A stretch of 64,000 bases of DNA, taken from Sinorhizobium garamanticum. GTDB taxonomy: Bacteria > Pseudomonadota > Alphaproteobacteria > Rhizobiales > Rhizobiaceae. The stretch spans positions 434,001-498,000 of the forward strand of contig NZ_CP120373.1 in NCBI RefSeq assembly GCF_029892065.1, in the 5' to 3' direction. The notes under the pieces are model-generated. The model ran no database searches. It had not been told where the DNA came from and was given only the letters and a program-made list of their open reading frames with translations. Each line of letters begins with the position of its first letter. The stretch's first letter is position 1. Made by a program: the position numbers and the translations under genes. Positions 27,188-52,998 of this stretch are shown here, piece by piece.

Positions 27188-27261
27188 TGGGGAATAGGTT
27201 AACGGTAGACCAGCGGACTCTGACTCCGTTAGTCCTGGTTCGAATCCAGGTTCCCCAGCCA
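27188..27261 (+). tRNA. tRNA-Gln (anticodon CTG)
   Basis: A 74-nt cloverleaf: acceptor arms TGGGGAA / TTCCCCA, anticodon stem GCGGA / TCCGT around loop CTCTGAC (anticodon CTG), T-arm CCTGG-TTCGAAT-CCAGG, discriminator G and encoded CCA. The gene is intact. Two downstream partial copies of its 3' half show that it is an integration site for mobile elements. Confidence 0.95.
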
Positions 27262-27333
27262 ACCACTTTCAGCAGCAAAATCAAGAAGTTAAGGCAACGC
27301 CATCTTGGCCAAACGGCCTTTTTCATGTCGCGT

Positions 27334-27413
27334 CATGTTGCAAAAGAATTCCGTTGATTTTCAACGACTACCGTGCAGACACGGCGACTCCACGCAACAC
27401 GGAATGCAACATG
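27334..27413. repeat. 80-bp imperfect inverted repeat just inside the island
   Basis: The outer arms CATGTTGCA (27334-27342) and TGCAACATG (27405-27413) match exactly. Inner arms TTCCGTTG and CAACACGGAA match with one extra base. It lies 73 bp after the tRNA and may be a recombinase or excisionase binding region or a terminator. Confidence 0.55.
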
Positions 27414-27461
27414 TTTAGGAGATGACCACCGGGGAATGATTTCCAATCGCGCCGGATCAGG

Positions 27462-27713
27462 TTAAGCGGACGCGTTGTTCTCTTCGATGGCAAACGCCAC
27501 CTGCAGTTCCATCTGTACCGCGTGCATGAATAGGCCGGCTTGGCGCGATATCTCTTCCTCGACAACGCCCGACCTTCTCAGCGCCGCGGCAAAGTCGGCC
27601 ATTTCAGACCGCCAGAAACGGTTTGCTTGCTCTCCATGGAGCCGCTGGAGGGCTTCAGCGCATCGTTTGACATCGCCCGTGCGCCGATCGGCCGGGAACT
27701 GCAGAACCGTCAT
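27462..27713 (-). CDS. DUF6074-like small protein
   Basis: An 83-aa protein from ATG 27713 (GGAGG upstream) reading MTVLQFPADRRTGDVKRCAE, then EALQRLHGEQANRFWRSEMAD. This pattern fits the DUF6074 family found in rhizobial phages and islands, function unknown. A longer frame starts at GTG 27839 and overlaps the upstream gene by 4 nt, so a 125-aa form is possible. It is the last gene of a leftward group of four. Confidence 0.7.
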   Translation of the reverse strand: MTVLQFPADRRTGDVKRCAEALQRLHGEQANRFWRSEMADFAAALRRSGVVEEEISRQAGLFMHAVQMELQVAFAIEENNASA

Positions 27714-27835
27714 GCCGCCTCCATCGTTGCCAGGCGATTCGCCTGCGGATGGGGCTACAATCGCCGCCAGTCCTTCACAAAGATTGAACAGATTGCTTAT
27801 GCCGGCTCCAAGAAGGCGACCCACGCCGACATGGC

Positions 27836-28282
27836 TCACAGCGAGTCGACGCCCTTAGCCTTTCTCGGCTTCCTCTTGGCTGGCTTGCGTTTCGGTGCCG
27901 CACTCGCTCTGGCCGCCTTCGCCTCGGCTTCGCGCTTCCTCCGAAGATCCTCGTAGAGGCGCTCAAGGTCGTCAAAAGCATCATCCATTTCGCGCTGACC
28001 GTGTTTAATTTGAAGTTGCTGATGAAGCAAAGTCGACGCGGTCACTTGCAGCGCACCTCTGACCGTCCGCTGCATTGCAAGCTTCCTTCGGCCAAACAGC
28101 GAATCGTAGTCTCTTATCTCCTCGTCCTCGAGCATCAGCGCGTTTGCGACGGAGGCTTCAGACGGCATCCTTCCGACCCTGTTGTGGAATTCGATCGCGG
28201 CCTTCACCACCTCGTCGCATCGCAGAATCACCTCATAAGGCCGGCCAGCGCCTCTCACGACCCGGGTGATGTTTGCGGCCAA
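27836..28282 (-). CDS. Hypothetical protein, basic C-terminus
   Basis: A 148-aa protein. The N-terminal ~75 residues are of mixed composition (VKAAIEFHNRVGRMPSEASV). A helical, charged region follows (REMDDAFDDLERLYEDLRRK), ending in a lysine/arginine/proline-rich tail (KRKPAKRKPRKAKG) that could bind nucleic acid. I do not recognise the family. It overlaps the 3' end of the next upstream gene by 28 bp on the same strand. Confidence 0.65.
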   Translation of the reverse strand: MAANITRVVRGAGRPYEVILRCDEVVKAAIEFHNRVGRMPSEASVANALMLEDEEIRDYDSLFGRRKLAMQRTVRGALQVTASTLLHQQLQIKHGQREMDDAFDDLERLYEDLRRKREAEAKAARASAAPKRKPAKRKPRKAKGVDSL

Positions 28283-28389
28283 GCCACCAGTTCGCTGTCG
28301 AAGTGCTGTTGGGCCATGCGCTTGTTAGGCTTCGGATGTGGATTGTCCGCGACTACAGTGAGCTTCGGCCGATCTTGATCATCGCTCAT
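28255..28389 (-). CDS. Hypothetical 44-aa protein
   Basis: From ATG 28389: MSDDQDRPKLTVVADNPHPK followed by PNKRMAQQHFDSEL. It has GGAGGGG upstream at a long spacing and overlaps the following gene. The TVVADNPxPKPN wording is reminiscent of short rhizobial phage or plasmid proteins, but no function is known. Confidence 0.5.
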   Translation of the reverse strand: MSDDQDRPKLTVVADNPHPKPNKRMAQQHFDSELVAWPQTSPGS

Positions 28390-28488
28390 GGAAAATCCTG
28401 CCCCTCCAAGCAAAAAGGGCAGGGCGAGTCTGTTGTCGTGATCTGGCAAGGCCTTCTGATGGCGGCCCTTATGCCCTTCTCATGATGA

Positions 28489-28857
28489 TCATGACTGTTT
28501 CTTGCCCCAATATGCTGCCTGGTAGGCCTTATGCAATTGGCGCGCGCGCCGGTCGAGTTCATAGGCCATGAAGGTGATGTTCGCTCGCGATTCGGCGCAG
28601 ACGATCGCGTCCGCATCGGGATCGGTGTTTCTGAAACCGAGTGCCGCCTGAAACTCAAACTCGATGAGGTCGTGAAGCACGGTCGCCATCTGCATGACCG
28701 CGCCCACCTCGCATTCGAGTTCGCGCATGGATGAGACGACCGCTCGGCCATTGGTCTGGGCAACGATGGATTCAGCCTCTTTGTTCAGACGGTCGAGCTT
28801 GGGCAGGGCTTCAGCGACGGCAGGCGTGGGTTGATGCAGCATTGGTCTCGTCCCCAT
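28489..28857 (-). CDS. Hypothetical prophage early protein
   Basis: A 122-aa protein from ATG 28857 (ATG 28842 is an alternative). It is predicted helical with no membrane segment: EALPKLDRLNKEAESIVAQT, then MATVLHDLIEFEFQAALGFR. It is the first gene of the leftward group and divergent from the XRE repressor, so probably repressor-controlled. Family not recognised. Confidence 0.65.
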   Translation of the reverse strand: MGTRPMLHQPTPAVAEALPKLDRLNKEAESIVAQTNGRAVVSSMRELECEVGAVMQMATVLHDLIEFEFQAALGFRNTDPDADAIVCAESRANITFMAYELDRRARQLHKAYQAAYWGKKQS

Positions 28858-28869
28858 TGAGTTAAGATT

Positions 28870-28926
28870 ACACTTCTGATACAACCTTGCACAAATCACA
28901 AGTCAACACTTTTGATGTAAGGTTGC
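28870..28926. promoter_or_regulatory. Repeated operator candidate between divergent prophage genes
   Basis: Two related 21-bp units in direct orientation start at 28870 and 28906. Both follow ACACTTyTGATryAA and end in TTGC, 36 bp apart. They occupy the intergenic region between the XRE repressor and the leftward genes, where lambdoid-type operators would be expected. Confidence 0.55.
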
Positions 28927-28931
28927 TAATT

Positions 28932-29186
28932 TTGTCTATCACATCGGAACAGTGCCGTGCGGGTCGTGCCATATTGGGATGGTCTCAAGAACAGCTCGCC
29001 AGTGCCTCGAAGGTAGCCAAGGCGACGATTGCCAATTTCGAGGCGGGTAAACGGACGCCATACGATCGCACCCTGCAGGACATGCGGGAAGCGATGGAGG
29101 CGGCCGGCGTGATCTTCCAGGCTGAAGGCGAGATGGTCGACGGCGGCCCTGGAGTGAGGCTGAGAAGCGGAGGCGATCAGTCATGA
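28932..29186 (+). CDS. XRE-family transcriptional regulator
   Basis: An 84-aa helix-turn-helix protein from TTG 28932 (TAAGG 9 nt upstream). The HTH covers most of the protein: QCRAGRAILGWSQEQLASAS, then KVAKATIANFEAGKRTPY. It resembles short XRE regulators common in alphaproteobacterial prophages (the EQCRAGRAxLGWSQ type). There is no cleavage or oligomerisation domain. It probably represses the divergent leftward genes and itself through the direct-repeat sites just upstream. Confidence 0.85.
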   Translation: MSITSEQCRAGRAILGWSQEQLASASKVAKATIANFEAGKRTPYDRTLQDMREAMEAAGVIFQAEGEMVDGGPGVRLRSGGDQS

Positions 29187-29226
29187 TTCCGATCGGCAAA
29201 GCCAGAGAGCGAGAAAATACAGGCGG

Positions 29227-29580
29227 TTAAGCCTTTTCGTCTTCATCGCATCCAAAGACATAAACCCGGATTAGCTTAGGGTCTGCCTCTAGCTTTCCAA
29301 TGATTTCATCGATGAATTTCTGCACCCTTCCGTCAGCTTCAGAAGGGTCCTTACCTACTTCAATCAGGTCTCTCTTGCCTTCCTGGTAGAGACGGTCTGC
29401 CTTCACCCTCTGGGCTGCCTCTGAGACCTTGTTGCCTGCGTGCCTGTAGGCTTCCGCTAAGATCCTGTGCACGGCAGTGCAGTGGAAGTAGTGATACCTG
29501 GGGACGTGTCGCTTCCGTTCCTGTGCGGAGACAGCGGTCGAAAGCGAAAGTATGAGAGCCGCAACAAGCTGAAGTTTCAT
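29227..29580 (-). CDS. Exported hypothetical protein
   Basis: A 117-aa protein with a clear signal peptide (MKLQLVAALILSLSTAVSAQ). The mature part is charged and helical with two Cys (YFHCTAVHR and VFGCDEDEKA) that could form a disulfide. I do not recognise the family; it is probably a cargo gene of the element. Confidence 0.7.
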   Translation of the reverse strand: MKLQLVAALILSLSTAVSAQERKRHVPRYHYFHCTAVHRILAEAYRHAGNKVSEAAQRVKADRLYQEGKRDLIEVGKDPSEADGRVQKFIDEIIGKLEADPKLIRVYVFGCDEDEKA

Positions 29581-29611
29581 GTCGGATTAAAGCCCCTTGC
29601 CCCAAAAGGCC

Positions 29612-29830
29612 TTAGTCAGCCCTTTTCTTCGCACCTCGTCTAGCCTGTTCCTTCTCCTGCTTTTCGATCCATTGCAGGAGGGTGGATTTCCTGGCGGCCA
29701 CGGTTCTGCCTATCCGGAAGGCCGGTAGGTTCCCCTTGCTCGTCATGCCAGGAGACTTGCCGGGTGCGTAATACCGAGGAAGCGGGCGATCTCTTGCTTT
29801 GCCGATCGCTGCAGGCTCTCGATCAGACAT
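29612..29830 (-). CDS. Small basic protein, possible excisionase-like HTH
   Basis: A 72-aa protein from ATG 29830 (GGGAAGG just upstream, short spacing). The segment FRIGRTVAARKSTLLQWIEK resembles the second half of MerR/excisionase-type winged helices, where a recognition wing is followed by LxxWIE. The C-terminus is very basic. It could be a recombination directionality factor, but the first helices are not convincing. Confidence 0.45.
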   Translation of the reverse strand: MSDREPAAIGKARDRPLPRYYAPGKSPGMTSKGNLPAFRIGRTVAARKSTLLQWIEKQEKEQARRGAKKRAD

Positions 29831-30082
29831 AGCCTTCCCGCCCAAAATCCCCGCGTAGGAGACGGATTTCTGCCGGCCGACATCGCGCCGATACAGAGAC
29901 ATAGGGAAAGCCTTGCCCGAGCATTTTCCTGCTGTGGGGAGCCGTCGGCTTCGGCGCGGGTTTGATTTCCGTTTGATTAAATTCAATCAGGGCGGACTTT
30001 GGAGGCATACAGAATGCGCACACAAGCAGCGCGGAGGGCATATCCCGGAGGCCCGCCCTTTTCTCTAACCTCTTCCCGCCAA

Positions 30083-30442
30083 TTACGGTCTCAGACTCTC
30101 GCGTAGCGAAGCTTCCAGGAAAGGCATCACGTAATCCACCATTTCGGTACTGTGCAGGCGCATTTCCTTGTCATGCGGCCAATGATTTTTGTTAGCGTGG
30201 TCAATATGCTGCACCAGTTGTCTCGGGTCTGGTGTGCGAGAATTGTAGAATCTTACCAGTACATACTTCTTGCGAACCTTCACTTCGGCAAATATGCGAT
30301 TGATCGAGTAGGTAAGCCGTTGCTGGGGCGTCGCATCTTCTTTTATTCGTCTGTCTAGCATCAAAATCCGCCTTCTCAGTCCGTCCAGAATGGGGCGGAC
30401 TTCAGGTTCGGCGTATGCGATGTGCTCTTCAATCATGCCCAT
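30083..30442 (-). CDS. DUF5655-like protein
   Basis: A 119-aa protein. VRPILDGLRRRILMLDRRIK near the N-terminus and the alternating strands YVLVRFYNSRTPDPRQLV fit DUF5655, a small predicted nuclease-like or nucleic-acid-binding domain found alone or next to nucleases. There is no signal peptide. It lies among unknown genes of the prophage-like segment. Confidence 0.55.
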   Translation of the reverse strand: MGMIEEHIAYAEPEVRPILDGLRRRILMLDRRIKEDATPQQRLTYSINRIFAEVKVRKKYVLVRFYNSRTPDPRQLVQHIDHANKNHWPHDKEMRLHSTEMVDYVMPFLEASLRESLRP

Positions 30443-30627
30443 GGATCGATTTCTCCGGGTTCCGGGTCGGCGAGGTTATTGCACAGGAAAGACGTTGGAG
30501 CTCGTGATTGTACGCAAATGCCGTCTGCAATCACACTAACCCCTTTGGGCGGCGCCATAATCCTTGACTGCAGCGTGCACTGTGCGACCCTTCAAGCTCC
30601 TGGTTGTAGTGCGTGGGACGGACGCCG

Positions 30628-31068
30628 ATGATCCGCGACTTTTCTAGGAGCGCAGCGCTGGTCTGCCTCTGCACCTTCCTTTCTGGATGCTGGCCAGGGG
30701 AGTGCTATCCGCCATTGCCTCCGCTGCTGCGCGATTTAGAAGCCTCGGGAGGCTGGTGGACCAACGGGTGCCCCCCTCCCGAAGATTTTCTTCGTAGCCG
30801 CATGCGAGAAGGCGTTTCACCGGAGCTCACAAAGCGATTGCGGATGCGGTTCCCGGCCGGCAGTGATGCGGCGGCGTTGGAACGATACCTGCAGGGAGAA
30901 GGGTTCCAGATTTCCTCACCTTGTGGTGAGCGTGCTCCGAGAGTGCGTCTGGGTCAGTTTCACCAAGAGGGTTGCCCGTACCCGATGAATGCGAAGATAG
31001 CTTGGGAGCGAGCAGAGGACGGAACAGTGACCTGGGTAAAAGGTCACGTCTTTTACAAATACCCGTAG
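30628..31068 (+). CDS. Hypothetical lipoprotein
   Basis: A 146-aa protein from ATG 30628 with a lipoprotein signal (AALVCLCTFLSGC, lipobox LSGC). The mature part has paired Cys residues and shows no family I recognise. It may be a lysogenic-conversion or envelope protein of the element. It converges with the nuclease gene at 31120. Confidence 0.65.
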   Translation: MIRDFSRSAALVCLCTFLSGCWPGECYPPLPPLLRDLEASGGWWTNGCPPPEDFLRSRMREGVSPELTKRLRMRFPAGSDAAALERYLQGEGFQISSPCGERAPRVRLGQFHQEGCPYPMNAKIAWERAEDGTVTWVKGHVFYKYP

Positions 31069-31119
31069 GCTCGCGTTACGCCGCCGATCGCTCCTGCTGG
31101 TCTCGTGGGGCGTGCCATC

Positions 31120-31836
31120 TTATCCGCACCACGACGGCTTGAAGCCAAGCCAATGGTGAGCAAGCCCCTCGTCGACGAGTTGTGCCCCGAGCGATCGGCC
31201 GCCTCGGTAGACCTCGCGCAGCTTCCGACCGTATTTGTCCTCATCGCTGAGGCCTGCTTTGAGACCGAAGGCGCCGGCGTTCAGAAGCGATTGAAGGCGG
31301 AGCTTGGCCTGCTCGCCTAGCGCCTTCTCCTCTGCGCAACACGGCTCGCTGATCTCCGGCGTGTCGACGTCCGAGATCCCGTACTTGATGCCCTCGAGCC
31401 AGAATGTATCACCGTCCACGACGCAGGTTATCCGCGCGTCCGATGCGCATATGGGGAAGGATGCGGAAATGGTGTCTTCCGGCGGCACGGTTGCCCAGCC
31501 GTAGGCTCCACCTATCACGATGCCAGCGAGAGGCAACATAAACACCCAGGGGGATAAACCCCTTCTAGGCGCCGCCGGGCCTTTGATCGGATTGAATTCG
31601 GTGAATCCCCCCACGGCCTCCCGCGACGCTCGCGGCTTCTTGCCTGTCCGACCAAACAAGGAATTGGCGACAAGTATCGCGCAAACTAGCACGCCGCCTA
31701 TGACCAGCGCGAAGGGCGAGCGACTTCCGCCTCCACCGCCCCCTCGCCTGCGCGCCTCGGCGTCATTTGGAAGCAAAAGCAGAAGTGGGCCGAGCACCAA
31801 AGCGCGGCGGCTTAACTGGGATGGCGTGACGCGCAT
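31120..31836 (-). CDS. Membrane-anchored thermonuclease-family (SNase) protein
   Basis: A 238-aa protein. An N-terminal signal-like segment (RRALVLGPLLLLLP), a Gly-rich stretch and two membrane segments (FALVIGGVLVCAILVAN and VFMLPLAGIVIGGAYGW) precede a C-terminal SNase domain. The nuclease part shows ITCVVDGDTFWLEGIKYGIS, VDTPEI with the catalytic Asp region, GEQAKLRLQSLLN, and DKYGRKLREVYRGGRSLG with the active-site Arg region. The active site is probably periplasmic, where it could degrade incoming DNA. The fusion to membrane segments is unusual compared with soluble micrococcal nucleases. Confidence 0.85.
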   Translation of the reverse strand: MRVTPSQLSRRALVLGPLLLLLPNDAEARRRGGGGGGSRSPFALVIGGVLVCAILVANSLFGRTGKKPRASREAVGGFTEFNPIKGPAAPRRGLSPWVFMLPLAGIVIGGAYGWATVPPEDTISASFPICASDARITCVVDGDTFWLEGIKYGISDVDTPEISEPCCAEEKALGEQAKLRLQSLLNAGAFGLKAGLSDEDKYGRKLREVYRGGRSLGAQLVDEGLAHHWLGFKPSWCG

Positions 31837-32002
31837 CTGGTCCCCTCAACCGAAACTGCACAAACCCCTCTTTCATATGGAAGCACAAAGGAGACAGTGA
31901 GTCGAGTAGAGGCAGAGCTGCGCGCGTGAGTTGCGAGACTCGGCGCAAATAATTTTGACGGTCGGTTCTGGCACGGCCTGATCTTTGCGGCAGATCGGAT
32001 AT

Positions 32003-32635
32003 CTATGCGGCGGCCTTCAGTTCCACGGCATCCGCCTCTCGGGCCATGCGCATGAACTTGTGCGCGATATGCAGGGATAAACCCGACTTTTCCTGGACCC
32101 AGAGCGTGAAATGGCCGTGTGGCAAGCTCCGTTTGATCCCGGTCAGCTCGCGACCGTATTGAATCTCCTGTTCCTTGGTTCGGCGGACGCGCTTCGCGTA
32201 CTTTTCGGTTGCGCCCTTCCCCGCCAGGCTCTTTTGCGCCTTCACCCAGAGCTGGTAATGGATGACGCCGGCCAGGGCATAGCGCTGGCGAACAACGCCG
32301 CGAAGCTGGGAAGTGATGTAGCAGATCCATCCCATCGGGAGCTCGTCGAGCCAGTCGAGGAACTGGGACGTATGTTCTTCGACCCATTCAGGGCATGCCC
32401 TAATCAGATCACTGAAAGCCCAGAGCGTGAACACGTCGATCAGCCCTTCCTTGCCTTTAGTTTCCGCCAACTCGGTCATGACCATGCGGAAATGCCCTTC
32501 GCCGTGTTTCGCGATAATCCGGGCCATCGTGGCTACGGCGCGAGTCTCACCAGGCATGGGGAAGACGTTTCCCGGAACGATCTTGATTCCGTATTCATCG
32601 CATATGGAGCGGGCGAGCGCTTCGGACATGGTCAA
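32003..32635 (-). CDS. Hypothetical prophage protein
   Basis: A 210-aa protein from ATG 32635 with a mainly helical, charged sequence (TMARIIAKHGEGHFRMVMTE, LIDVFTLWAFSDLIRACPEW). It has no membrane segment or signal peptide. I recall similar proteins in rhizobial prophages but know no function. It is immediately downstream, in transcription order, of the tail-protein fragment. Confidence 0.7.
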   Translation of the reverse strand: MTMSEALARSICDEYGIKIVPGNVFPMPGETRAVATMARIIAKHGEGHFRMVMTELAETKGKEGLIDVFTLWAFSDLIRACPEWVEEHTSQFLDWLDELPMGWICYITSQLRGVVRQRYALAGVIHYQLWVKAQKSLAGKGATEKYAKRVRRTKEQEIQYGRELTGIKRSLPHGHFTLWVQEKSGLSLHIAHKFMRMAREADAVELKAAA

Positions 32636-32644
32636 CTCCTTTGT

Positions 32645-32870
32645 TTAGGACGCCGGGAACCGTTCGGCCGGCGGCGTGAAGCTCGCGGTAAATCGGCAAG
32701 CCTCCGTGACGCGCAACTCGTCGAGATAGCCATTCCACGAACAGTTGTCGGGGGCGGTGGAAGCTCGCCCGACATCGAAACTGTTAGGCAGCGTCGCGGT
32801 GTTGGTGTTGCTGATCGACTGCAGGACGCCGTCGATGAAGCAGCGCACCACGTTCGCGGCGACATTCCGA
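32645..32870 (-). pseudogene. LamG-type phage tail protein, C-terminal remnant
   Basis: Reading leftward, a ~75-codon stretch contains VRCFIDGVLQSISNTNTATL, FDVGRASTAPD and NGYLDELRVTEACRF, then TASFTPP. This is the end of a concanavalin/LamG domain as found in phage tail and fibre proteins. Homology begins abruptly near 32870, where the integrase remnant on the opposite strand starts, so a deletion joined the two. Confidence 0.75.
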
Positions 32871-33520
32871 CCAATGCTGAGATCCGGGCCATTCTCGACG
32901 CTGCTACCGGCCGATATCGCCCGCTCTTGGTGACTATGATCTTCACTGGCATCCGAGCCAGCGAGGCGCGCGGACTGCGGTGGGAAGATGTCGACCTGAA
33001 GCAAGCAATCCTGCACGTGAGGCAGCGAGCCGACCGCTATGGCGATGTCGGGATGCCAAAGTCCGAAGCAGGGCAGCGAACCGTTCCCCTGCCCCCGATC
33101 GCCGTCAACACACTGAAGGAATGGAAGTTGGCTTGCCCCAAGAGCGAGGCCGGGCTTGCCTTCCCCAATTCGGTCGGGAACATCGAGAACCACCAGAACA
33201 TGCTCAAGCGCGGTCTGTGGCCGATTCTGATCGCCGCGGGCGTCACCACCACCACCGACGAATTGGACAAGGATGGAAAGCCGATCCTTGCGCCGAAGTA
33301 TTCAGGCTTTCATGCGTTACGCCATTGGTTCGCGAGCTGGTGCATCAACCGGAAGGCAGATGGAGGCTTAGAGCTGACGGCTAAGGCCGTTCAGGTGCGA
33401 ATGGGCCATAGCTCCATTCAGGTCACGTTCGACACCTATGGGCACCTGTTCCCGACAGTGGATGAAGCAGCGGAAATGGCGGCAGCCGAGCATGCCCTGT
33501 TCGCGATCGACCCGACATAG
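32859..33520 (+). pseudogene. Tyrosine recombinase (phage integrase), N-terminally truncated
   Basis: The catalytic domain is nearly complete. It starts near GDIPTNAEIRAIL and includes FTGIRASEARGLRWEDVDL (first catalytic Arg), HALRHWFASW (HxxR), MGHSSIQVTFDTYGHLFP (second His and the Tyr nucleophile) and a normal C-terminus. The core-binding and arm-binding N-terminal domains are missing; the frame continues upstream only through unrelated sequence overlapping the tail-protein remnant. It ends 50 bp before the tRNA-derived repeat. Probably inactive, although the catalytic residues remain. Confidence 0.85.
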
Positions 33521-33569
33521 ACGCGACATGCAGCAAAAAAGATGAGCCTTTTCAACGGTGGGTGGAACA

Positions 33570-33610
33570 CTCTCACTCCGTTAGTCCTGGTTCGAACCCA
33601 AGGTCCCCAG
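33570..33610 (+). repeat. Attachment-site copy: tRNA-Gln anticodon-to-T-arm duplicate
   Basis: 41 nt matching tRNA-Gln bases 27218-27258 with four mismatches (one in the anticodon loop, three in the T-arm). The stretch ACTCCGTTAGTCCTGGTTCG is exact. It cannot form a tRNA because the 5' half is absent. Confidence 0.85.
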
Positions 33611-34705: not shown

Positions 34706-34712
34706 GGTTCGT
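34688..34712 (+). terminator. Hairpin spanning the stop codon of the SnoaL-like gene
   Basis: ACGAACCCT and AGGGTTCGT flank a 7-nt loop. There is no T-tract. The sequence from 34713 to 35061 shows no gene. Confidence 0.4.
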
Positions 34713-37000: not shown

Positions 37001-37019
37001 GACCGTCTCCCAAATTGAA

Positions 37020-45517: not shown

Positions 45518-45578
45518 TACTCATCGCAACGCCAAATTTTTGAACGGCTTGCCACTATGTTGTGCGACATCGATCTTC

Positions 45579-45595
45579 TGATGTATTTCGCATCA
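45579..45595. promoter_or_regulatory. Minor palindrome upstream of the ABC operon
   Basis: TGATG and CATCA flank a 7-nt centre; a possible auxiliary operator for the divergent LacI regulator. Confidence 0.4.
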
Positions 45596-45621
45596 TAAAA
45601 TGGCCTCCGTCTTCCTTGTCT

Positions 45622-45650
45622 GATGTGATTTCAATCCAGATAATCACATC
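45622..45650. promoter_or_regulatory. Palindromic operator candidate of the ABC operon
   Basis: Arms GATGTGATT and AATCACATC are exact inverted repeats around an 11-nt centre, 20 bp upstream of the binding-protein ATG. This is a good position for repression of the operon. Confidence 0.65.
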
Positions 45651-45670
45651 GTTAACGGAGGAGGAACCCC

Positions 45671-46702
45671 ATGAAATTCGGAAATTCGATTCTGCTTTCT
45701 GCCTTGATGGCCGCCACCGCACTTGGAGGCATAGCCAATGCGCAGGACGGCGAAAAGCAATATCGCTTCGTCATGGTCTCTCACATCGGATCGAACGATC
45801 CGAACATGGGTTGGCTGACGAAGTCGATGGAGGAGTTCGAGAAGAAATATCCGAACGTCAAAACCGAATACATCTCCACCAACAACTATTCGGTCCAGGA
45901 ACACGTTCGCCTTCTCGAGCAGGCTATCTCGACCCAGCCCGATGGCATCGCCGTGCCGATCGTCAGTTCCGATGCCTTCGAAGGGCCGCTGCGCAAGGCC
46001 ATCGAAGCCGGCATTCCGGTCGTTGCCTTCAATATTCCGGACGGCCGGCCTGAGGGCGAGCGCATTCCCTACCTGACCTATGTCGGCGGCGACGAATATC
46101 TCACGGGCAAGAAGCTCGGCGAATACGCGCTCGAAAAGGCAGAAGCCGGCGAAATCCCGAAACCGACCCATGTCGTCTGCGCAAGCCATGACTCCGCCCA
46201 CCAGGGTCTCAAGGCTCGTTGTGCCGGGATGAAGGACGCAATGGAGAAGGCCGGCGCGAAGGTTGATGAACTCTTCATCGGCGCCGAACCGGCGACGGCA
46301 CGCAACACCTTGCAGTCCTTCCTGCAGGCCAACCCGGACACCAACTACATCTTCACGGTTGCTGGCTGGTCTTCACCCTGGGCATGGGGTGTCGCCAATG
46401 AGATGAAGCTCGACCCGGATGTCGACGACAAGGGCGTGACTGTCCTGACGGTTGACGAGGGTCCGGTTTCGATCGAGGGCGTGCGCGCCGGGCATGTGCT
46501 GGCGACGAACAGCCAGGGCTTCTGGCTGCAGGGCTACGCTCCGATGGAATGGCTCTACTGGAACAAGGAGTTCGGCTACGCGCCGCAGTCGAATATCCTG
46601 ACCGGTCCCGTGATCATCAACAAGGATAACGCAGACAAGTGGGCCGAACTGGTCCGCGGCGTCTTTGGCGACAAGGCCTACGACGAGCAGAACACCTGGT
46701 AA
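45671..46702 (+). CDS. Sugar ABC transporter substrate-binding protein
   Basis: A 343-aa periplasmic-binding protein (type 4 fold, RbsB-like) with signal peptide SILLSALMAATALGGIANA. Ligand-fold motifs are FVMVSHIGSNDPNMGWL, YSVQEHVRLLEQAISTQPDG, VAFNIPDGRPEGERIPYLTY and VGGDEYLTGKKLGEYA. ATG 45671 is preceded by GGAGGAGGAA. It delivers a monosaccharide or polyol to the permeases below; ligand unknown. Confidence 0.94.
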   Translation: MKFGNSILLSALMAATALGGIANAQDGEKQYRFVMVSHIGSNDPNMGWLTKSMEEFEKKYPNVKTEYISTNNYSVQEHVRLLEQAISTQPDGIAVPIVSSDAFEGPLRKAIEAGIPVVAFNIPDGRPEGERIPYLTYVGGDEYLTGKKLGEYALEKAEAGEIPKPTHVVCASHDSAHQGLKARCAGMKDAMEKAGAKVDELFIGAEPATARNTLQSFLQANPDTNYIFTVAGWSSPWAWGVANEMKLDPDVDDKGVTVLTVDEGPVSIEGVRAGHVLATNSQGFWLQGYAPMEWLYWNKEFGYAPQSNILTGPVIINKDNADKWAELVRGVFGDKAYDEQNTW

Positions 46703-46804
46703 GGGTTCCTCCCGGAGGGGCGGCCGGCTGCGACGAGGAGCGCCGGCTGCCCCGACCCATTTGTGCGCCTGACATCGCACATTGAAACCAGCGAGCAGAG
46801 TGTC

Positions 46805-47761
46805 ATGAAACAGCTTGTGCGAAGCCAAGGCTTCGGCGCGATCATCGGCGTCGTCGTCATGCTTGTCGTGTTTTCCCTGATCGACTTTTCCGGCTGGTGG
46901 ACCGCCCAGACCATCACCAATGTCACGCAGTTCACAGCCATCTTGTCCTTCGTCGCCATGGGCCAGGCCCTTGTCATCATGACGAAGGAAATCGACCTGT
47001 CTGTCGGCTCCGTTTACGGGCTGGCTGGCGTTGCCTTCATCACGCTGGAACCGAGTTTCGGTGTGCCCGGATCGCTCGTCATAGCGCTGGTCATGGCTGC
47101 CTTCGTCGGCCTTCTTCAGGCGTTTGCCGTGGTGAAGGGGCACTTGCCGTCGATGATCGTGACGCTCGGCGGCCTCTTTGCGGTCCGCGGGATCATCTAT
47201 GTCTGGACGGGTGGCTCGGTCCACAATTTCTCAGCCGATGCACGCATCCATCCGGTGACCCGTCTGTTCGGCGGCGAACTGTTCGGTGTCGAAGCGGCCA
47301 TATTCTGGCTTGTCGTGGTCGCCGCCGTTCTCGGTATCGTCCTCTGGGCCACACCCTTCGGAAATCGCCTTCTGGCCACCGGGGGAAGCCGCGAAAGCGC
47401 GGAATCGCGCGGCGTTCGCACCGACCGAGTGAAGATCTGGACCTTCGTCCTTTGCTCGCTGCTCGCCGGATTCGCCGGCATCCTGACCCTATGCAACCAG
47501 CCGCAAACCCATGTCACGCTCGGCGAAAACATGGAGCTCGAGGCCATTTCTGCCGCGGTCATCGGCGGCTGCCTGCTGACTGGCGGACGCGGCTCGATCA
47601 TTGGAGCCGTACTCGGAGCTCTCATCGTCGTCAGCTTCCGCTACGAACTCATCGCTCTTGGCGCGCCCTCGTCCTGGTACATCACCTTCGTCGGTGTCGT
47701 GCTCATCGTGGCGATCATCTTCAATCAGAAACTGGCCCGTTTCCTCGGACACAGCGTTTGA
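46805..47761 (+). CDS. Sugar ABC transporter permease (first)
   Basis: A 318-aa RbsC/BPD_transp_2 type permease with about 8-10 membrane segments. Motifs include MTKEIDLSVGSVYGLAGVAF and the coupling-helix loop NRLLATGGSRESAESRGVRT, then LEAISAAVIGGCLLTGGRGS. The start ATG 46805 (MKQLVRSQGFG) has only a weak ribosome binding site. It pairs with the second permease two genes on, so the membrane channel is probably a heterodimer. Confidence 0.92.
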   Translation: MKQLVRSQGFGAIIGVVVMLVVFSLIDFSGWWTAQTITNVTQFTAILSFVAMGQALVIMTKEIDLSVGSVYGLAGVAFITLEPSFGVPGSLVIALVMAAFVGLLQAFAVVKGHLPSMIVTLGGLFAVRGIIYVWTGGSVHNFSADARIHPVTRLFGGELFGVEAAIFWLVVVAAVLGIVLWATPFGNRLLATGGSRESAESRGVRTDRVKIWTFVLCSLLAGFAGILTLCNQPQTHVTLGENMELEAISAAVIGGCLLTGGRGSIIGAVLGALIVVSFRYELIALGAPSSWYITFVGVVLIVAIIFNQKLARFLGHSV

Positions 47762-47778
47762 CGCGGGAGGACATCAAA

Positions 47779-48555
47779 ATGGCGAACAGCACCCCCCTCA
47801 TTCAGGTGAAGAACCTTGATCTCCACTTCGGCGCTTTCCACGCCCTCAAGAACGTCTCGGTGGACTTTCACGCCGGTGAGCTGATTGGCCTGGTCGGCGA
47901 CAACGGCGCCGGCAAGACAACGCTGATCCGCGTCCTTTGCGGCATTTACGCCCCGACGTCGGGCGGGGTCTTTTTCGATGGCAATAAGGTGGAGAAATTT
48001 CACCCGAAGCTTGCGATCGACCAGGGCATCGAGACGATTCAGCAGTCCGTCGGCCTCTGCGACAACCTGTCGATCGCGCGCAATTTCTATCTCGGACGCG
48101 AGCCGGTTAAGCGTGTTCTCGGCATCCCCTTCCTCGATATGGGCAAGATGCGAGAGAAGTCTACACGCGTGATCCGGCAATTCGGCTTGCGTGCAAATGT
48201 CTCCGCGGACGACGAGGTGGAACGCCTGTCAGGCGGAGAACGTCAGTCCGTGAAGATCGGTCGCGCGGTCGAATTCAAGAACAGGGTCGTCATCATGGAC
48301 GAGCCGACCAACCATCTGTCGGTACGCGAACGCGAGCACGTCAACGAGCTCGCCGTCCAGCTCAAGGAGCAGGGCCTGCTCGTCATCTACATCACTCACG
48401 ACATCTTCCAGGTGCACAGGCTCGCCGACCGAATTGTGATCATGGAGAATGGCGAAAAGGTCGCGGACGCAACGACGGATTCCATGACGGCGGAAGAACT
48501 CGAAGAGGTAATCCGCCAGGGCGGGCGCGTCGTGGAAAAGCGGGAGGCGGTCTGA
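47779..48555 (+). CDS. Sugar ABC transporter ATP-binding protein, single domain
   Basis: A 258-aa ATPase from ATG 47779 (GGGAGG upstream). Walker A is GDNGAGKTT, the signature LSGGERQSVKIGRAVEF, Walker B VVIMDEPTNHLS and the H-loop YITHD. It has a single nucleotide-binding domain, not the fused double domain of RbsA-type sugar transporters, so it should work as a homodimer. Its stop overlaps the next start by one base (TGATG). Confidence 0.94.
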   Translation: MANSTPLIQVKNLDLHFGAFHALKNVSVDFHAGELIGLVGDNGAGKTTLIRVLCGIYAPTSGGVFFDGNKVEKFHPKLAIDQGIETIQQSVGLCDNLSIARNFYLGREPVKRVLGIPFLDMGKMREKSTRVIRQFGLRANVSADDEVERLSGGERQSVKIGRAVEFKNRVVIMDEPTNHLSVREREHVNELAVQLKEQGLLVIYITHDIFQVHRLADRIVIMENGEKVADATTDSMTAEELEEVIRQGGRVVEKREAV

Positions 48556-49529
48556 TGGCTCTCTCCTCCGCCAAACCTCTTATTCGGCGTCACGCGGAGA
48601 TCGGGATCATCCTGATCGGCGCCGTTCTGATCGTCATCTTCGCCTCAACATCGGACGGTCGGTGGGCCAATCTCTACAATATCGGCACCATCCTGCAGGT
48701 GACGGCAACGCTAGGCTTGATGAGCCTCGGCGTCGCTCTGGTGATCGGGACGGGCGAGATCGACATCTCGGTCGGTTCGACTTTCGGCATGGGCGCGCTG
48801 GCCTATCTCTGGCTTGCGACCCAGGTTGACCCGTCGATCGCCGCAGTTGCTACGGTGTTGGTCGGCGCCGCGATCGGACTGTTCAACGGCTTGCTGGTCA
48901 CCCGAACCGGCACGCCATCCCTCATCATCACGCTTGGGACGCTGATGATCTTCCGCGGCATCGCCATCGCTCTGACCGAGGGATTTTCGTTCTCTATTCC
49001 CTATGCAGCGCGCAAGGGCTGGACCTACTTCGTCCTCGGCGGCGGTGACTTCCTGGGCTTCAACACCGCGCTCTACTGGCTCATGACGTTGACCGTTATT
49101 CTCCTGGTGGCGTTGAAAGCAACGCCTTTCGGCAACCGCCTTCTCGCCGTTGGCGGGTCCGCCGAAAGCGCGCATTCGCGTGGCGTTCGCGTTGATCGCA
49201 TCAAACTGTCCGCTTTTGTCCTGTGCGGCATGTTGGCGGGTTTCGCTGGCACGCTCGAGGCCGGCAAGCTTGGCTTCGCAGACGGCTCGATGGGGCGCCT
49301 GATGGAACTGCAGGCGATTGCCTCGTGCGTGCTTGGCGGCTGCCTGCTCGCCGGCGGCAGGATCTCGCTGCCAGGTGCGCTGATGGGGGCCTTCGTTCTG
49401 TCCTCCATCCAATCCTATCTCGTGGTTACGGGCGTCCGTCCACAATGGTTCATCCTCGTCCTTGGTCTCATCGTGGTACTCGCCGCCTACGGCGACCGAT
49501 CGCTGCGGCAATGGGCGCTTCGCAAGTAA
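48555..49529 (+). CDS. Sugar ABC transporter permease (second)
   Basis: A 324-aa permease of the same family as the first, with VALVIGTGEIDISVGSTFGM, the loop NRLLAVGGSAESAHSRGVRV and LMELQAIASCVLGGCLLAGG. It overlaps the ATPase gene by one base. The two permeases share many positions, implying duplication. Confidence 0.92.
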   Translation: MALSSAKPLIRRHAEIGIILIGAVLIVIFASTSDGRWANLYNIGTILQVTATLGLMSLGVALVIGTGEIDISVGSTFGMGALAYLWLATQVDPSIAAVATVLVGAAIGLFNGLLVTRTGTPSLIITLGTLMIFRGIAIALTEGFSFSIPYAARKGWTYFVLGGGDFLGFNTALYWLMTLTVILLVALKATPFGNRLLAVGGSAESAHSRGVRVDRIKLSAFVLCGMLAGFAGTLEAGKLGFADGSMGRLMELQAIASCVLGGCLLAGGRISLPGALMGAFVLSSIQSYLVVTGVRPQWFILVLGLIVVLAAYGDRSLRQWALRK

Positions 49530-49539
49530 AGGGTTCAAA

Positions 49540-50550
49540 ATGTCTGTCAGAGTAGCGATCATAGGCGCGGGTATCATGGGGGCCGATCACGCCCGCATTG
49601 TCGCCGAAGATCTTCCGGGAGCCTCGCTGCAGGTTGTGTGCGACGCCTCGCAGGAGCGTGCGCGCAAGGCGGCCAACGAATACGGCGCAGGTGACGTCTC
49701 GGACGATCCGCTTGCCACCATCAGACGCGATGACGTTGATGCCATTCTGATTGCCAGCCCCGACGAAACCCATGCGCCGCTTGCGCTTGCGGCCATCGAG
49801 GCTGCAAAGCCCGTGCTTTGCGAGAAGCCACTCTCGCAAAGCTCGAAGGAGTGCCAGGACGTCATCGAGGCGGAAGTGTCCCGCGGCCGGCAGTTCGTCC
49901 AACTGGGCTTCATGCGCCGCTTCGATCCGTCCTATCGGGAAATGAAAGCGGCCTTGGACGACGGCTCCCTCGGGGCCGCGATCATGATGCACAATTTCCA
50001 CCGGAACGTGGAAGCGCCTGCAAACTTCACGGGCCGGATGGCTATCACCAACTCTGCCCCCCACGAGTTCGATGTCGCACGGTTCGTCCTCGGCGCCGAT
50101 TACAAGGCGATCTCCGTCTTCCAGCCGGCCGGGATAGACGCTTCCAGGACGGGAGCGCCGGTCTTCATGGTCCTGGAGACCGACAAGGGCCAGCTGGTCA
50201 ACATCGAGATCAACAACAACGCCGCCTACGGCTATGACGTCCGCGGTGAGCTCGTCGGCGAAAAGGGGTCAGTCTTTCTCAACGCGCCGATCCATACGCG
50301 ACAGAACGGCCGGCTCATGTCCTACGAGCGTTATGCGCCGGACTGGAGGCCGCGATTTGCGGAAGCCTATCGGCTTCAGAACAAGGCCTTTCTCAATTTC
50401 GTCCGAACCGGGGAGTTCCCTCCCATCGCGGCGGACGCTTGGGACGGCTACTGCGCAGCGCGCGTTGCGGAAGCGGGCGTCGAAGCCCTTCAGAAGGGCG
50501 CGCGCGTCACCCTTGCGGGAGCGGAAAAGCCGTCCCTCTACAAGCATTAA
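49540..50550 (+). CDS. Gfo/Idh/MocA family oxidoreductase
   Basis: A 336-aa NAD(P)-dependent dehydrogenase. The Rossmann motif is VAIIGAGIMGADHARI, the signature EKP lies in PVLCEKPLS, and a catalytic His is in NSAPHEFDVARF. The family includes inositol 2-dehydrogenase and MocA, and the gene lies next to a sugar transporter and a TIM-barrel isomerase. It probably oxidises a hydroxyl of the imported sugar or cyclitol. The start is ATG 49540, 10 bp after the permease stop. Confidence 0.93.
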   Translation: MSVRVAIIGAGIMGADHARIVAEDLPGASLQVVCDASQERARKAANEYGAGDVSDDPLATIRRDDVDAILIASPDETHAPLALAAIEAAKPVLCEKPLSQSSKECQDVIEAEVSRGRQFVQLGFMRRFDPSYREMKAALDDGSLGAAIMMHNFHRNVEAPANFTGRMAITNSAPHEFDVARFVLGADYKAISVFQPAGIDASRTGAPVFMVLETDKGQLVNIEINNNAAYGYDVRGELVGEKGSVFLNAPIHTRQNGRLMSYERYAPDWRPRFAEAYRLQNKAFLNFVRTGEFPPIAADAWDGYCAARVAEAGVEALQKGARVTLAGAEKPSLYKH

Positions 50551-50562
50551 AGGATTAAAGAG

Positions 50563-51522
50563 ATGAAACTCGGCTTCGTTTCCGACAGCCTCGGCGGAAT
50601 GACCTTCGACGGGCTTCTCGACAGCGCCGCGCGCCTTGGTGTCTCGGGCGTGGAGGTCAACACAGGCGGCTGGTCGACCGCTCCGCACTTCGACCTAAAG
50701 ACGATGAAGGCAAGCGCCGATGCTCGCCGCGCCTTCACTCGCGCCTTCGAAACCCGCGGGCTCGAGATTATTGCGTTGAACGCCAACGGCAATCCCTTGC
50801 ATCCGACCCAACCCGAGCAGGGCGAGTGCCTCAAGGACACGATCCGCATCGCCGGCGAGATGGGGATCAAGACCGTCTGCACCATGTCCGGACTGCCGGC
50901 AGGACGTAACGGCGATCTGATGCCGAACTGGGTCGTCTCTTCCTGGCCGCCGGAAACGCAGGAGATCCTGCGTTACCAGTGGGAGGACAAGCTCCTCCCC
51001 TTCTGGACCGAGACCGTGGCACTCGCCGAGGAGAATGGCGTCGAGCGCATCGCGCTCGAGCTTCACGGCAACCAGTGCGTCTACAACGTTCCCTCGCTTC
51101 TGAAGCTCCGGGCGGCCGTCGGCCCGATCGTCGGCGCCAATCTCGATCCATCGCATCTGTTCTGGATGGGGGCGGATCCCCTCGTCGTCGCCGAAGCACT
51201 CGGCGAGGCCGTCTATCACGTCCATGCCAAGGACACGATGCTCAACGCGCCTGTCCAGGCAACAACTTCGCTCCTCGAGAACGGCTCGCTCATGGACATT
51301 CCGGCGCGAAGCTGGTCCTACATCACCCTCGGCTTCGGCCATGGCGAGGAGTGGTGGCGACAGTTCTGCTACCGCCTGAAGATGGCAGGCTATGACGGCT
51401 GGCTGTCGATCGAGCACGAGGACGTGCTGCTCAATAGCCTCGAAGGGTTGGAGAAATCCGTCGCCCTGCTCAACGGGGTGATGCCCGTCGCGCCGAGTGA
51501 CTTCAAGCCGCAGGCAATTTGA
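50563..51522 (+). CDS. Sugar phosphate isomerase/epimerase family TIM barrel
   Basis: A 319-aa xylose-isomerase-like barrel (AP_endonuc_2, PF01261). Metal ligands are seen in IALELHGNQCVYN (Glu), GANLDPSHLFWMGA (Asp/His), VYHVHAKDT (His/Asp) and WLSIEHEDVL (Glu). With the adjacent MocA-type dehydrogenase this forms the usual oxidoreductase-isomerase pair of sugar or inositol breakdown. ATG 50563 is 12 bp after the previous stop. Exact substrate unknown. Confidence 0.93.
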   Translation: MKLGFVSDSLGGMTFDGLLDSAARLGVSGVEVNTGGWSTAPHFDLKTMKASADARRAFTRAFETRGLEIIALNANGNPLHPTQPEQGECLKDTIRIAGEMGIKTVCTMSGLPAGRNGDLMPNWVVSSWPPETQEILRYQWEDKLLPFWTETVALAEENGVERIALELHGNQCVYNVPSLLKLRAAVGPIVGANLDPSHLFWMGADPLVVAEALGEAVYHVHAKDTMLNAPVQATTSLLENGSLMDIPARSWSYITLGFGHGEEWWRQFCYRLKMAGYDGWLSIEHEDVLLNSLEGLEKSVALLNGVMPVAPSDFKPQAI

Positions 51523-51595
51523 GGGTCGAACGACGGTGGGCCCAAATTCACATGGACATCCGTAGTTGCCGCTCAGATCTGGAGAACAGTAGGGG

Positions 51596-51913
51596 ATGCG
51601 AGGCCTGAATGAAGGTGCACCACCAAGCAGTCTTTCGGAACTGAAGTCGATGATCGCCTCGAGACAGCTCGAATTCCCAGATCAGCTTGAACGGGTTGTC
51701 CGCTGCGCCCTCGTCACTCCGGAACTAATCGCCTTTGGTAGCTCCAATTCGGTGGCACTTGCCTGTTCGGTGTCACCGACGACCGTGGTCCGGCTCGCCG
51801 GCTTCCTCGGCTTCGAGAACTATCGAGACCTTCGAACCTTGTTTCGGGAGCATTTGCGGAGACGTGCCGCACGAGTGCCGGCGTCCGGCTCAGCGACCGG
51901 GCTAGCCGGATAG
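51596..51913 (+). pseudogene. Truncated RpiR/MurR-type regulator (HTH only)
   Basis: A 105-aa frame whose first ~90 residues are the N-terminal domain of RpiR regulators: SLSELKSMIASRQLEFPDQL, VALACSVSPTTVVRLAGFLG and FENYRDLRTLFREHLRRRAA. The sugar-binding SIS domain (about 150 residues) is missing, and the following DNA has no matching sequence. It could still bind DNA, but is best read as a remnant cut by the event that formed the island end. Confidence 0.7.
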
Positions 51914-52998
51914 CCTGTTCACGGGGACCTGTGGGTGGAATGTGAGTGTGGCCGCTTGGAGCTATAAACTGTGCCATTTGGCGCGATGGCCGCTGTTGGG
52001 CACATTCCGGTCTCATCGGCCGAGACAGCCGAACTTCCGCAGTCCACCCATTGCTGCTGGTGCCGACCCGCCAGTGAAGGCGCGCTTAGGGCCCAGAAGC
52101 GGAAATAATTGCCGCTCTACGCACGTGTTGACTGAGGCCCAAAGCCAGGGCACAAAGGTGGCATCCACGGTCGCCCGCGACGGAAAAACAGAGGGAATTC
52201 AAAGGCACTTTCGTTAAGCCTTTGAAATCATGTGAGAATCCAGGTTCCCCAGCCACTCCTTATTTTTCCTTTGTTTTCAAGCGCTTAGCGAATATCATAA
52301 ATCGCTAGCCGTAACAGTTTTCCGGTGCATAATTCGGCATCATGGCGCGCCTTTCAGTCGTGGTTCACAATGCACCATTCTCCATCATCGCCTATCATGG
52401 CTAGATCTCACGACAACACCACCTCTGCCTCGACCTAGAAACAGGGAGAGCATCATGCCCGAAACTATCCGATGCTGCCCCGGGGATGCTCTTGACGGGC
52501 TGAACCCTCTTGGGTGCTAGCATGCAGCGGTGAATTCGACGCCACCGCAATGACCGGCCGCATCTGTTTGTTGTGCGTCTAAAACCAGCGGTCGAGTCCG
52601 GATTTGATGACAATGGCCCATTGCCTGTGCCCTTTAAAGAGCGCATGCTGTCAACTTCAGTAGCCATTTTCCGGGCGCTGCTGCTTCGGGGCCTCGGTGT
52701 CCTGGCCCCAACGAAAGGAGGACAGCCTGTCTTCCGACCTCCACGTTCACATCACCGCTCGTAACCTCGTCAGCGTTAGCGGATTTGGATACGGCGAAAA
52801 CGTTCGGCTTCAGCAAATTCGTAAAGCCGAATCAGCGGTCGCACCGCGCATCAAGCGATTCAATTCGGCAACGCCGCGCGAAGGCCTTTCCTGCCTTCGT
52901 GGCGGAACATTACGTTTTTGCTGAGTGAGGCAACGTACGGCGATGCCGCTGTATTGAAAGCTGCAGCCGAAAATCAACCGAAAATCCAGGAGGACCAA
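51914..52998. other. Gene-free stretch across the island's right end
   Basis: No supported gene on either strand, apart from the 20-nt tRNA-derived copy at 52236-52255. Frames between 52.4 and 52.9 kb are short and without recognisable domains. The stretch is interrupted only by the small gene starting at 52999. Confidence 0.6.
52236..52255 (+). repeat. Attachment-site copy: 3' end of tRNA-Gln
   Basis: Twenty bases (GAATCCAGGTTCCCCAGCCA) identical to tRNA-Gln 27242-27261, covering half of the T-loop, the T-stem, the acceptor strand and CCA. It marks the right boundary of the composite island. Confidence 0.85.

Follow-up and report, generated by a model that had tools for sequence, protein, structure and literature searches.

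Three tandem islands at one tRNA-Gln gene of Sinorhizobium garamanticum, probably built by two site-specific recombination systems

In Sinorhizobium garamanticum, an intact tRNA-Gln gene is followed by two partial copies of its 3' part, which raises the question of how many insertions the gene has received, by which systems, and where the foreign DNA ends. The initial annotation of the window (the whole stretch of 64,000 nucleotides that was analysed) proposed a composite island built by successive insertions at this one gene. ARAGORN, Rfam and alignment of the copies established that the gene and both copies are real:

27188-27261, plus strand: intact tRNA-Gln(CTG), the attachment gene (ARAGORN; Rfam tRNA)
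33569-33610, plus strand: first partial tRNA copy, 38/42 identical to the tRNA-Gln, with 4 mismatches
52236-52255, plus strand: canonical 20-nt core equal to the tRNA-Gln 3' end, forming the junction of units B and C; 20/20 identical, ending at the CCA of the tRNA

All 74 nt of the gene were unchanged in the 30 Ensifer relatives read. When the tRNA-Gln was searched against the whole genome (E<=10), five matches were obtained: the gene itself, its two partial copies, a genuine tRNA-Gln(TTG) at another locus and a stretch of 15 nt (E 1.5). That the copies are chance repeats of tRNA sequence, unrelated to integration, can practically be dismissed, as an exact 20-mer is expected only ~7e-8 times by chance in ~37 kb on both strands. 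Moreover, the right end of unit B, which lies beside the 20-mer, recurs in 13 of the 33 genomes of the genus and in 19 of 247 Rhizobiaceae genomes plus 23 plasmid records (at most three candidates being scored per genome in the family-wide survey), mostly adjoining the same core. Within 26500-57000, only the tRNA-Gln reached its Rfam gathering score. A tRNA-Ala called by ARAGORN at 51181-51265 was taken as false because it falls within a gene with a Pfam TIM-barrel match, and Rfam gave no tRNA hit there at E<=0.5. A repeat at 26871-26990, which we take to be a RIME, gave 12 match rows in the window (the self-match and two overlapping rows counted) and none inside 27262-55783 in the window-wide search, in agreement with the annotated absence of such elements from the island.

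The two copies had been described as covering different parts of the tRNA, and this was borne out: identity to the tRNA begins at the anticodon loop in right ends like that of unit A and at GAATCC in those like that of unit B. The difference would be explained by two integration systems that, as the junctions suggest, use different places in the tRNA, the anticodon loop and the T-loop. We consider it highly probable that three tRNA-Gln islands stand in tandem at 27262-55782, produced by two such site-specific recombination systems.

The extent of the array was given by relatives with an empty site, found in 4 of 30 readable Ensifer genomes (G002, G020, G027 and G032), and the emptiness applies to the whole array, not to single units. 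The resident flank was not located in seven of the 30 (G008, G016, G017, G018, G019, G025 and G030). The empty site had been predicted to join 27261 directly to 52256; instead, the four genomes carry the tRNA, ~64 bp, and then the equivalent of window position 55783. The right edge of the foreign DNA is thus at ~55783, not 52255, and since the empty relatives resume there, a third unit exists behind the perfect copy:

52256-55782: unit C, a remnant, absent from empty sites
52256-52342, plus strand: type II left end of C, 70-81% identical over 30-66-nt stretches directly behind the tRNA in G003 and G026
55783-64000: resident chromosome, resuming ~64 bp past the tRNA in G002, G020, G027 and G032

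Among 20 relatives compared, the genes of 27.3-52.2 kb were not found as a syntenic block shared by many chromosomes without tRNA copies. A single island at 27262-52255, in which a younger extension was added to an old phage insertion, with 52236-52255 as its right boundary and ordinary chromosome from 52256, would account for the existence of both copies, for the phage derivation of unit A, and for the two private mismatches among the four of the first copy, such as age would give. We nevertheless regard it as very unlikely, because 52256-55782 is missing from the four empty relatives, which continue with the equivalent of 55783, the DNA after 52255 resembles that directly behind the tRNA in G003 and G026, and the other two mismatches are common to other genomes. 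In the three-unit reading, the right end of C is lost, as neither an att copy nor a displaced tRNA fragment marking it was found near 55783; with this and the weak match of its left end, that C was once a complete unit is an assumption. DNA homologous to C was present within the G011 island and, in G001, G004 and G024, at other places. A defence role for A and C was considered and set aside: 9 of their 10 proteins had no PADLOC match, and the single match was weak and partial (30083-30442, PDC-S18, E 5e-5).

The unit next to the tRNA was annotated as phage-type with a decayed integrase beside the first copy, and comparison with relatives agreed on both points:

27262-33593: unit A, a 6.3-kb putative remnant of a ~40-kb prophage-type island at the anticodon loop, with stretches shared with G004 and G010
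27262-27414, plus strand: type I left end of A, 80-82% identical behind the tRNA in G004 and G010, and 72% over part of it in G022
32861-33520, plus strand: C-terminal catalytic half of a tyrosine integrase (Pfam PF00589), 94% identical to residues 183-401 of the 401-aa integrase of G004
33569-33593, plus strand: displaced tRNA fragment from anticodon loop to T-loop, the right end of A, with one private mismatch (comparison with relatives)

The left end of A, the stretch 31116-31940 and the integrase are common to G010 and to a 39.6-kb island of G004, which opens with the left end of A; at its other end, the complete 401-aa integrase is followed by an exact displaced tRNA fragment and then by resident DNA. 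This island encodes portal, terminase, primase/helicase and endolysin; no phage structural genes were found among the scanned proteins of the 6.3-kb remnant. A junction equivalent to the right end of A, with exact tRNA sequence, occurs in G004, G010 and G022. Judged by these related islands, unit A appears to be the remnant of a tailed-phage-type prophage. Of its integrase, only the equivalent of residues 183-401 is left, from 32861, and the N-terminal half has been replaced by unrelated DNA.

The metabolic cargo that the perfect copy was said to bound corresponds to unit B, whose right end lies at the 52236-52255 core:

33594-52241: unit B, an integrase-less metabolic cargo unit of the T-loop class, with its left end and 44411-52040 shared with G026, a widespread right end and no PF00589 match
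33594-33613, plus strand: variant T-loop core at the left edge of B, not ending in CAGCCA
33614-33779, plus strand: type IV left end of B, without a clear open frame; 84-93% identical in G007, G011, G014, G015, G020, G026 and G029, and 78% in G010
35309-35881, minus strand: frame that contains a fragment of a Ti-type TraG/VirD4 coupling protein, its C-terminal ~52 residues (Pfam; NCBIfam TIGR02767)
35978-43732: cargo 1, with LacI regulator, TctC/TctB/TctA tripartite transporter, DHDPS-like protein, IlvD/EDD dehydratase and RraA-like protein (Pfam)
44411-51913: cargo 2, with LacI regulator, periplasmic binding protein, ABC ATPase and permease, Gfo/Idh/MocA oxidoreductase, TIM-barrel isomerase and RpiR-type HTH fragment (Pfam)
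52030-52235, plus strand: conserved right end of B, of which ~140 bp from 52097 are the part kept across genera

B has cores at both ends, and the TraG fragment is the only trace of conjugation genes among the scanned proteins; with no PF00589 match either, B has the flanks and gene content of a cis-mobilizable element (CIME). The stretch 44411-52040 recurs in G026 behind the same left end as in B, with cargo 2 being 84-85% identical. The right end of B had no match in 50,697 phage records, and ARAGORN found no tRNA-Gln gene in the stretches read around its plasmid or second-contig copies. Two interpretations of this sequence were set aside. Against coding sequence, its copies differ by 1, 2 and 4 bases in length, which breaks a common frame (by inspection of the alignment); as a conserved RNA or single-strand hairpin, it gave a weak RNAalifold result on 40 copies, with the core-proximal inverted repeat unpaired.

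Related arrays in the relatives contain as many as seven units, of which the one nearest the tRNA encodes a single ~710-aa recombinase. The recombinase has a Pfam DUF6538 match and a weak Phage_integrase match, and adjoins the tRNA in G014, G015, G124, G147 and G257. A conserved 778-aa neighbour accompanies it. No trace of it was found in the window, and neither B nor C has a PF00589 match. Among 36 units compared, one pair of complete units was nearly identical: unit 3 of G014 and unit 2 of G029, without a recognised integrase, match at 98.96% identity across the full 17.5 kb between their junctions, and the two species show 78.6% identity over 1.3 kb just upstream of the tRNA. Sequence comparison places the nutrient block B in a family of cargo units of related bacteria that have matching ends and mostly no insertion enzyme of their own.

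The core itself is linked to the left end that follows it. In a set of 44 junctions, several of them related by descent, the cores before type IV left ends did not end in CAGCCA at any of 12 junctions (nine typed by most of the left end and three by short stretches of 18-35 nt), and CAGCCA was present in 10 of 12 cores before types I, II and III or resident flank, the exceptions being G003 and G073. In none of the 30 relatives does a type IV left end lie next to the tRNA. The divergence of the first copy had been read as age; two of its four mismatches are instead the core variant common to other genomes and tied to the B-type left end that follows. The remaining two (anticodon and T-loop, one each) have so far been seen in this genome alone and may reflect age. 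Overall, the evidence supports a successive build-up at a single tRNA-Gln gene in which the first unit is phage-type and the second metabolic; it does not support the right bound at 52255, the 27261/52256 empty site or divergence as a simple measure of age.

We propose the following model for the assembly of the array. System 1 would be that of a prophage-type island whose right end carries a 401-aa integrase; it would recombine at the anticodon loop and have given rise to unit A. System 2 would recombine at the first T-loop bases (GAATCC) and give rise to units B and C, each system-2 unit ending in the conserved ~160-bp right end and the core; its likely enzyme is the ~710-aa DUF6538-type tyrosine recombinase of the tRNA-proximal units in relatives. 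On insertion, an incoming unit would supply its own 3' half of the core, so that canonical-core units could adjoin the tRNA; variant-core units (type IV, B among them) would damage the tRNA, and all those observed follow a core that had been displaced before. C would have inserted first, followed by prophage A at the tRNA; B would then have entered the displaced tRNA fragment that separated A from C. Later, A would have lost most of its genes and half its integrase, and C its right end. B, without a recognised integrase, would have to be moved in trans. This order rests on core logic, and deletion of intermediate units could give the same outcome; homologous recombination between the conserved ends could also have moved units.

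The units might otherwise be decayed complete islands, each once equipped with an integrase and added by ordinary tandem accretion, now spreading mainly by homologous recombination through their conserved ends, with no working trans-mobilised class. We see this as a real though lesser possibility. Truncated ~710-aa recombinases do occur in units of G005, G007, G010 and G011, and tandem tRNA and tmRNA islands are known (PMC3146451, PMC11476347). However, none of 17 internal units in six genomes retained a trace of the ~710-aa recombinase (tblastn), the type IV units have a left end of their own and a core variant in common, and the unit common to G014 and G029 is an intact block in differing neighbourhoods, an observation still compatible with homologous recombination.

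One head recombinase, a row of cargo blocks and a recombination site at the 3' end of each block are the features of integrons. We entertain tentatively, and with slightly less than even conviction, that the T-loop arrays of Rhizobiaceae resemble them as a capture platform for very large cassettes. The ~710-aa DUF6538-type recombinase at the head, perhaps with its 778-aa neighbour, would insert and excise integrase-less multi-gene units through the ~160-bp right end and GAATCC; the core variant would make cargo units obligate followers, unable to occupy the tRNA, and conjugative plasmids would spread units between cells. Unlike integron cassettes, the blocks are 3-24 kb in size and multi-gene, and the site is a tRNA core; compared with attC, no consensus hairpin was found at the core, and the consensus fold of the 40 right ends is weak.

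Among known systems, the ssrA islands of Dehalococcoides are similar in lying in tandem behind one tmRNA gene, with 20-bp direct repeats of its 3' end, T-loop insertion and 15 members without an integration module that were suggested to be possibly cis-mobilizable (PMC3146451). In that account, the enzyme is a serine recombinase and the target ssrA, whereas here the candidate is a DUF6538-type tyrosine recombinase and the target tRNA-Gln, and the arrays considered here are further set apart by their conserved ~160-bp right end and by a core variant found at internal units only. The tandem tDNA islands of Islander likewise consist of a tRNA gene and displaced fragments, with crossover regions of two kinds, anticodon-centred and T-stem, that agree with the classes found here; the database counts 125 tandems of two or more and 4 of three or more, resolved only when each member has its own integrase and fragment (PMC4383910). 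In the genus of Sinorhizobium meliloti, tRNA-Gln(CUG) is a known island site; the accessible sections describe one tandem pair, at tRNA-Lys, with an integrase in each island studied, and do not describe integrase-less arrays or conserved ends (PMC11476347, PMC6328675). Arrays of this kind were not found in the literature searched, in which subscription journals are thinly covered, and may still have been described.

Tandem tRNA islands are therefore already known, and finders demanding one integrase per island, as under the Islander rule, would be expected to miss arrays of mostly integrase-less units. The linkage of core and left end yields a simple rule, open to testing, as to which units can adjoin the tRNA, and suggests that the crossover takes place inside GAATCC (~6 bp). 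Should integrase-less units indeed move by way of common ends and one recombinase at the head, some of the catabolic and restriction cargo carried by rhizobia and their plasmids would belong to one exchange system.

As shown by the following features, the tRNA-Gln gene was confirmed in the window together with both partial copies of its 3' part, and the central idea of the initial annotation, a composite island built by insertions at this one gene, holds.

27188-27261: tRNA-Gln(CTG) gene
32111-33520: reading frame of 469 aa in unit A
33569-33610: first partial tRNA-Gln 3' copy, 38/42 identical
33614-33779: type IV left end of unit B, common to other genomes
52030-52235: right end of unit B, common to other genomes
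52236-52255: second partial tRNA-Gln 3' copy, 20/20 identical

Apart from these three, the sole strong tRNA-Gln match in the genome (6.83 Mb, 3 contigs) was the real tRNA-Gln(TTG), and chance is excluded for the 20-mer at 52236-52255. The repeat at 26871-26990, a putative RIME element, gave 12 match rows across the window, counting itself, and none between 27262 and 55783. A tRNA-Ala(GGC) called by ARAGORN at 51181-51265 (-) looks false, as it sits in a Pfam-matched TIM-barrel gene where Rfam finds no tRNA.

Among 60 genomes compared (our own, 32 congeneric relatives and 27 from further away), the exact tRNA-Gln locus was readable in 30 of the 32 relatives, G009 and G023 being left out. In four of the 30 (G002, G020, G027, G032), a homologue of window 55783 onward lies about 64 bp behind the tRNA. 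Because these relatives go from the tRNA to window 55783, 27262-55782 is an insertion in full. The chromosomal flank had been placed from 52256 on; that boundary and the number of units both change, with a further unit, C, at 52256-55782. In the other 26 relatives, the 1.2-2.2 kb of sequence read past the tRNA did not contain the resident flank, and in seven of them (G008, G016, G017, G018, G019, G025, G030) it was located nowhere. Neither the ~64 bp of the empty sites nor any right-end tRNA copy was found near window 55783, so the right end of unit C was probably deleted. Nine of the 30 relatives (G006, G008, G012, G013, G016, G017, G021, G025, G030) carry other, unclassified DNA immediately behind the tRNA, in several cases starting CTTT or CTTG, and these may be further island classes.

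The start of unit C has 70-81% identity over 30-66 nt to the sequence that immediately follows the tRNA in G003 and G026, and homologues of its cargo lie inside the G011 island and elsewhere in G001, G004 and G024. In the last three genomes, a 257-aa protein (54331-55104, -) is 81-87% identical, away from the tRNA-Gln locus; it has no convincing family in Pfam, NCBIfam, PHROG or PADLOC.

Unit A (27262-33593) carries the decayed integrase noticed earlier beside the diverged copy, of which half of a 401-aa enzyme remains. Since the integrase part is confined to 32861-33520 (94% identity to residues 183-401 of a full-length integrase in G004), the 469-aa frame is a chance fusion. The first half has been replaced by DNA with a frame (32003-32635, -) matching PHROG family 22699, of unknown function. 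In G004, a 39.6-kb island opens with the left end of unit A and closes with the 401-aa integrase; next come an exact tRNA fragment that starts at the anticodon loop, and resident DNA. Seven of ten scanned proteins of that island had matches to PHROG families for portal, terminase, primase/helicase, endolysin, amidase, tail fibre or virion protein; of the others, one matched Arc-like regulators, one a family of unknown function and one nothing. These shared ends and phage genes identify unit A, by comparison, as a remnant of such a prophage.

The two partial copies span different parts of the tRNA because two attachment systems are involved: A-like right ends have ~45 nt in common with the tRNA, starting at the anticodon loop, whereas B-like right ends have 20 nt, starting at GAATCC in the T-loop. 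We tabulated the core, the 20-nt 3' end of the tRNA, at 44 junctions (two in the window and 42 elsewhere, contributed by 20 of the 22 further regions assembled, with none from G010 and G011), which are not independent, several being related by descent. With a type IV left end next, the core lacked the canonical CAGCCA ending at 12/12 junctions, the window's first copy among them (the type was assigned from most of the left end at nine and from short stretches at three). With types I, II, III or the resident flank next, it ended CAGCCA at 10/12 (exceptions G003 and G073); at 20 junctions without a classified left end, CAGCCA was present in five and missing in 15. The core type thus follows the next unit's left end, so its 3' half seems to travel with that unit; this locates the putative crossover within GAATCC. 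The diverged copy had been taken as the mark of an old insertion; two of its four mismatches are private (one in the anticodon, one in the T-loop) and may reflect age, but the other two are the core variant found elsewhere. Directly at the tRNA, a type IV unit would substitute its own sequence for the end of the gene, and none adjoined the gene in the 30 relatives. Unit B (33594-52241) therefore probably entered the tRNA fragment that A had displaced, with A on one side and an older C on the other, an order that we infer.

The cargo of unit B comprises two transport/catabolic clusters, each LacI-regulated according to Pfam. In G026, the cassette 44411-52040 recurs at 84-85% identity behind the same type IV left end. 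Directly before the core, window 52195-52230 holds an inverted repeat, AATTCAAAGGC..GCCTTTGAAAT, and each right end has one; both arms seem, by eye, to change between copies. The right end 52030-52235 had matches in 13/33 genomes of the genus and, queried with the core, in 19/247 family genomes (own included) and 14/109 genera, in a sample drawn evenly, with scoring limited to three candidates per genome; for 17 of those 19, a match extends into the core. No match was found in the phage records searched.

Several right ends stand in arrays: four in G014, with about 106 kb from tRNA to resident flank, four in G015, three each in G029 and G147, and seven full plus one partial in G257. Unit 3 of G014 (17,511 bp) and unit 2 of G029 (17,529 bp) share 98.96% identity over the full span between junctions, while their neighbours differ and the 1.3 kb directly upstream of the tRNA shows 78.6% identity; no second pair of this kind turned up among the 36 units compared, and neither member has a PF00589 match. 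Array units thus appear to move as blocks, by site-specific or homologous recombination.

The profile search of the genome found no PF00589 match in unit B, the sole one in this region being the half integrase of unit A. A ~710-aa recombinase, with DUF6538 and a below-cut-off Phage_integrase match in Pfam, adjoins the tRNA in G014, G015, G124, G147 and G257; the tRNA-proximal enzyme is truncated in G007 and broken in G029, and a further full-length one occurs in G073, in a stretch without a tRNA. It was not found in the 17 internal units of G007, G014, G015, G029, G147 and G257, one of which (a 182-aa frame, G257) had a PF00589 match; this profile rates even the ~710-aa enzyme below cut-off, and other diverged recombinases could go undetected. 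In G026 (C1:187136-187585), a different frame of 610 aa that matches PF00589 lies near that array's internal right end and junction; a core-like stretch lies alongside (17/20 matching). Behind the tRNA, a head module of ~14 kb is partly conserved among G014, G015, G147 and G257, including one protein beside the recombinase:

4556-6892 of L045 (-): 778-aa protein of the G014 head unit

It is 86-94% identical in the other three, has no Pfam match and had 1265 homologues among 8000 candidates scored, the ~65% identical relatives being named integrase by some sources. The boldest reading is that units would be moved in trans by one head recombinase.

The right end matched 23/72,556 plasmid records, two over at least 80% of the query. 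On pRL11 (Rhizobium johnstonii 3841; typed conjugative), two tRNA-like cores flank a unit that carries restriction genes, and the DNA read there contains no tRNA gene. On pRlX5 (R. ruizarguesonis; typed mobilizable), three right ends are lined up; behind one is a type IV left end, and behind another a type III. On the second contig of our own genome (C2 ~791.8-792.0 kb; L205), a right end, a decayed core and a type I left end lie together, and here too the DNA read contains no tRNA gene. G020, whose tRNA-Gln site is empty, carries on its second contig (C2 ~762-777 kb; L207, L208) a 14.7-kb unit bounded by two right ends. In unit B, the final ~52 residues of a Ti-type TraG are preserved in the frame 35309-35881, which hints at a plasmid in the unit's past. 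Given units and right ends on conjugative and mobilizable plasmids, plasmids are a plausible vehicle.

Sinorhizobium meliloti is reported to have islands at tRNA-Gln(CUG) (PMC6328675, PMC11476347) and one tandem pair at tRNA-Lys (PMC11476347), and the Islander paper gives four tandems of three or more, each member of which must have an integrase (PMC4383910). The closest published pattern found is that of the Dehalococcoides ssrA islands (PMC3146451). Our literature search found no description of these tRNA-Gln arrays, and the new part is the family of units to which B belongs.
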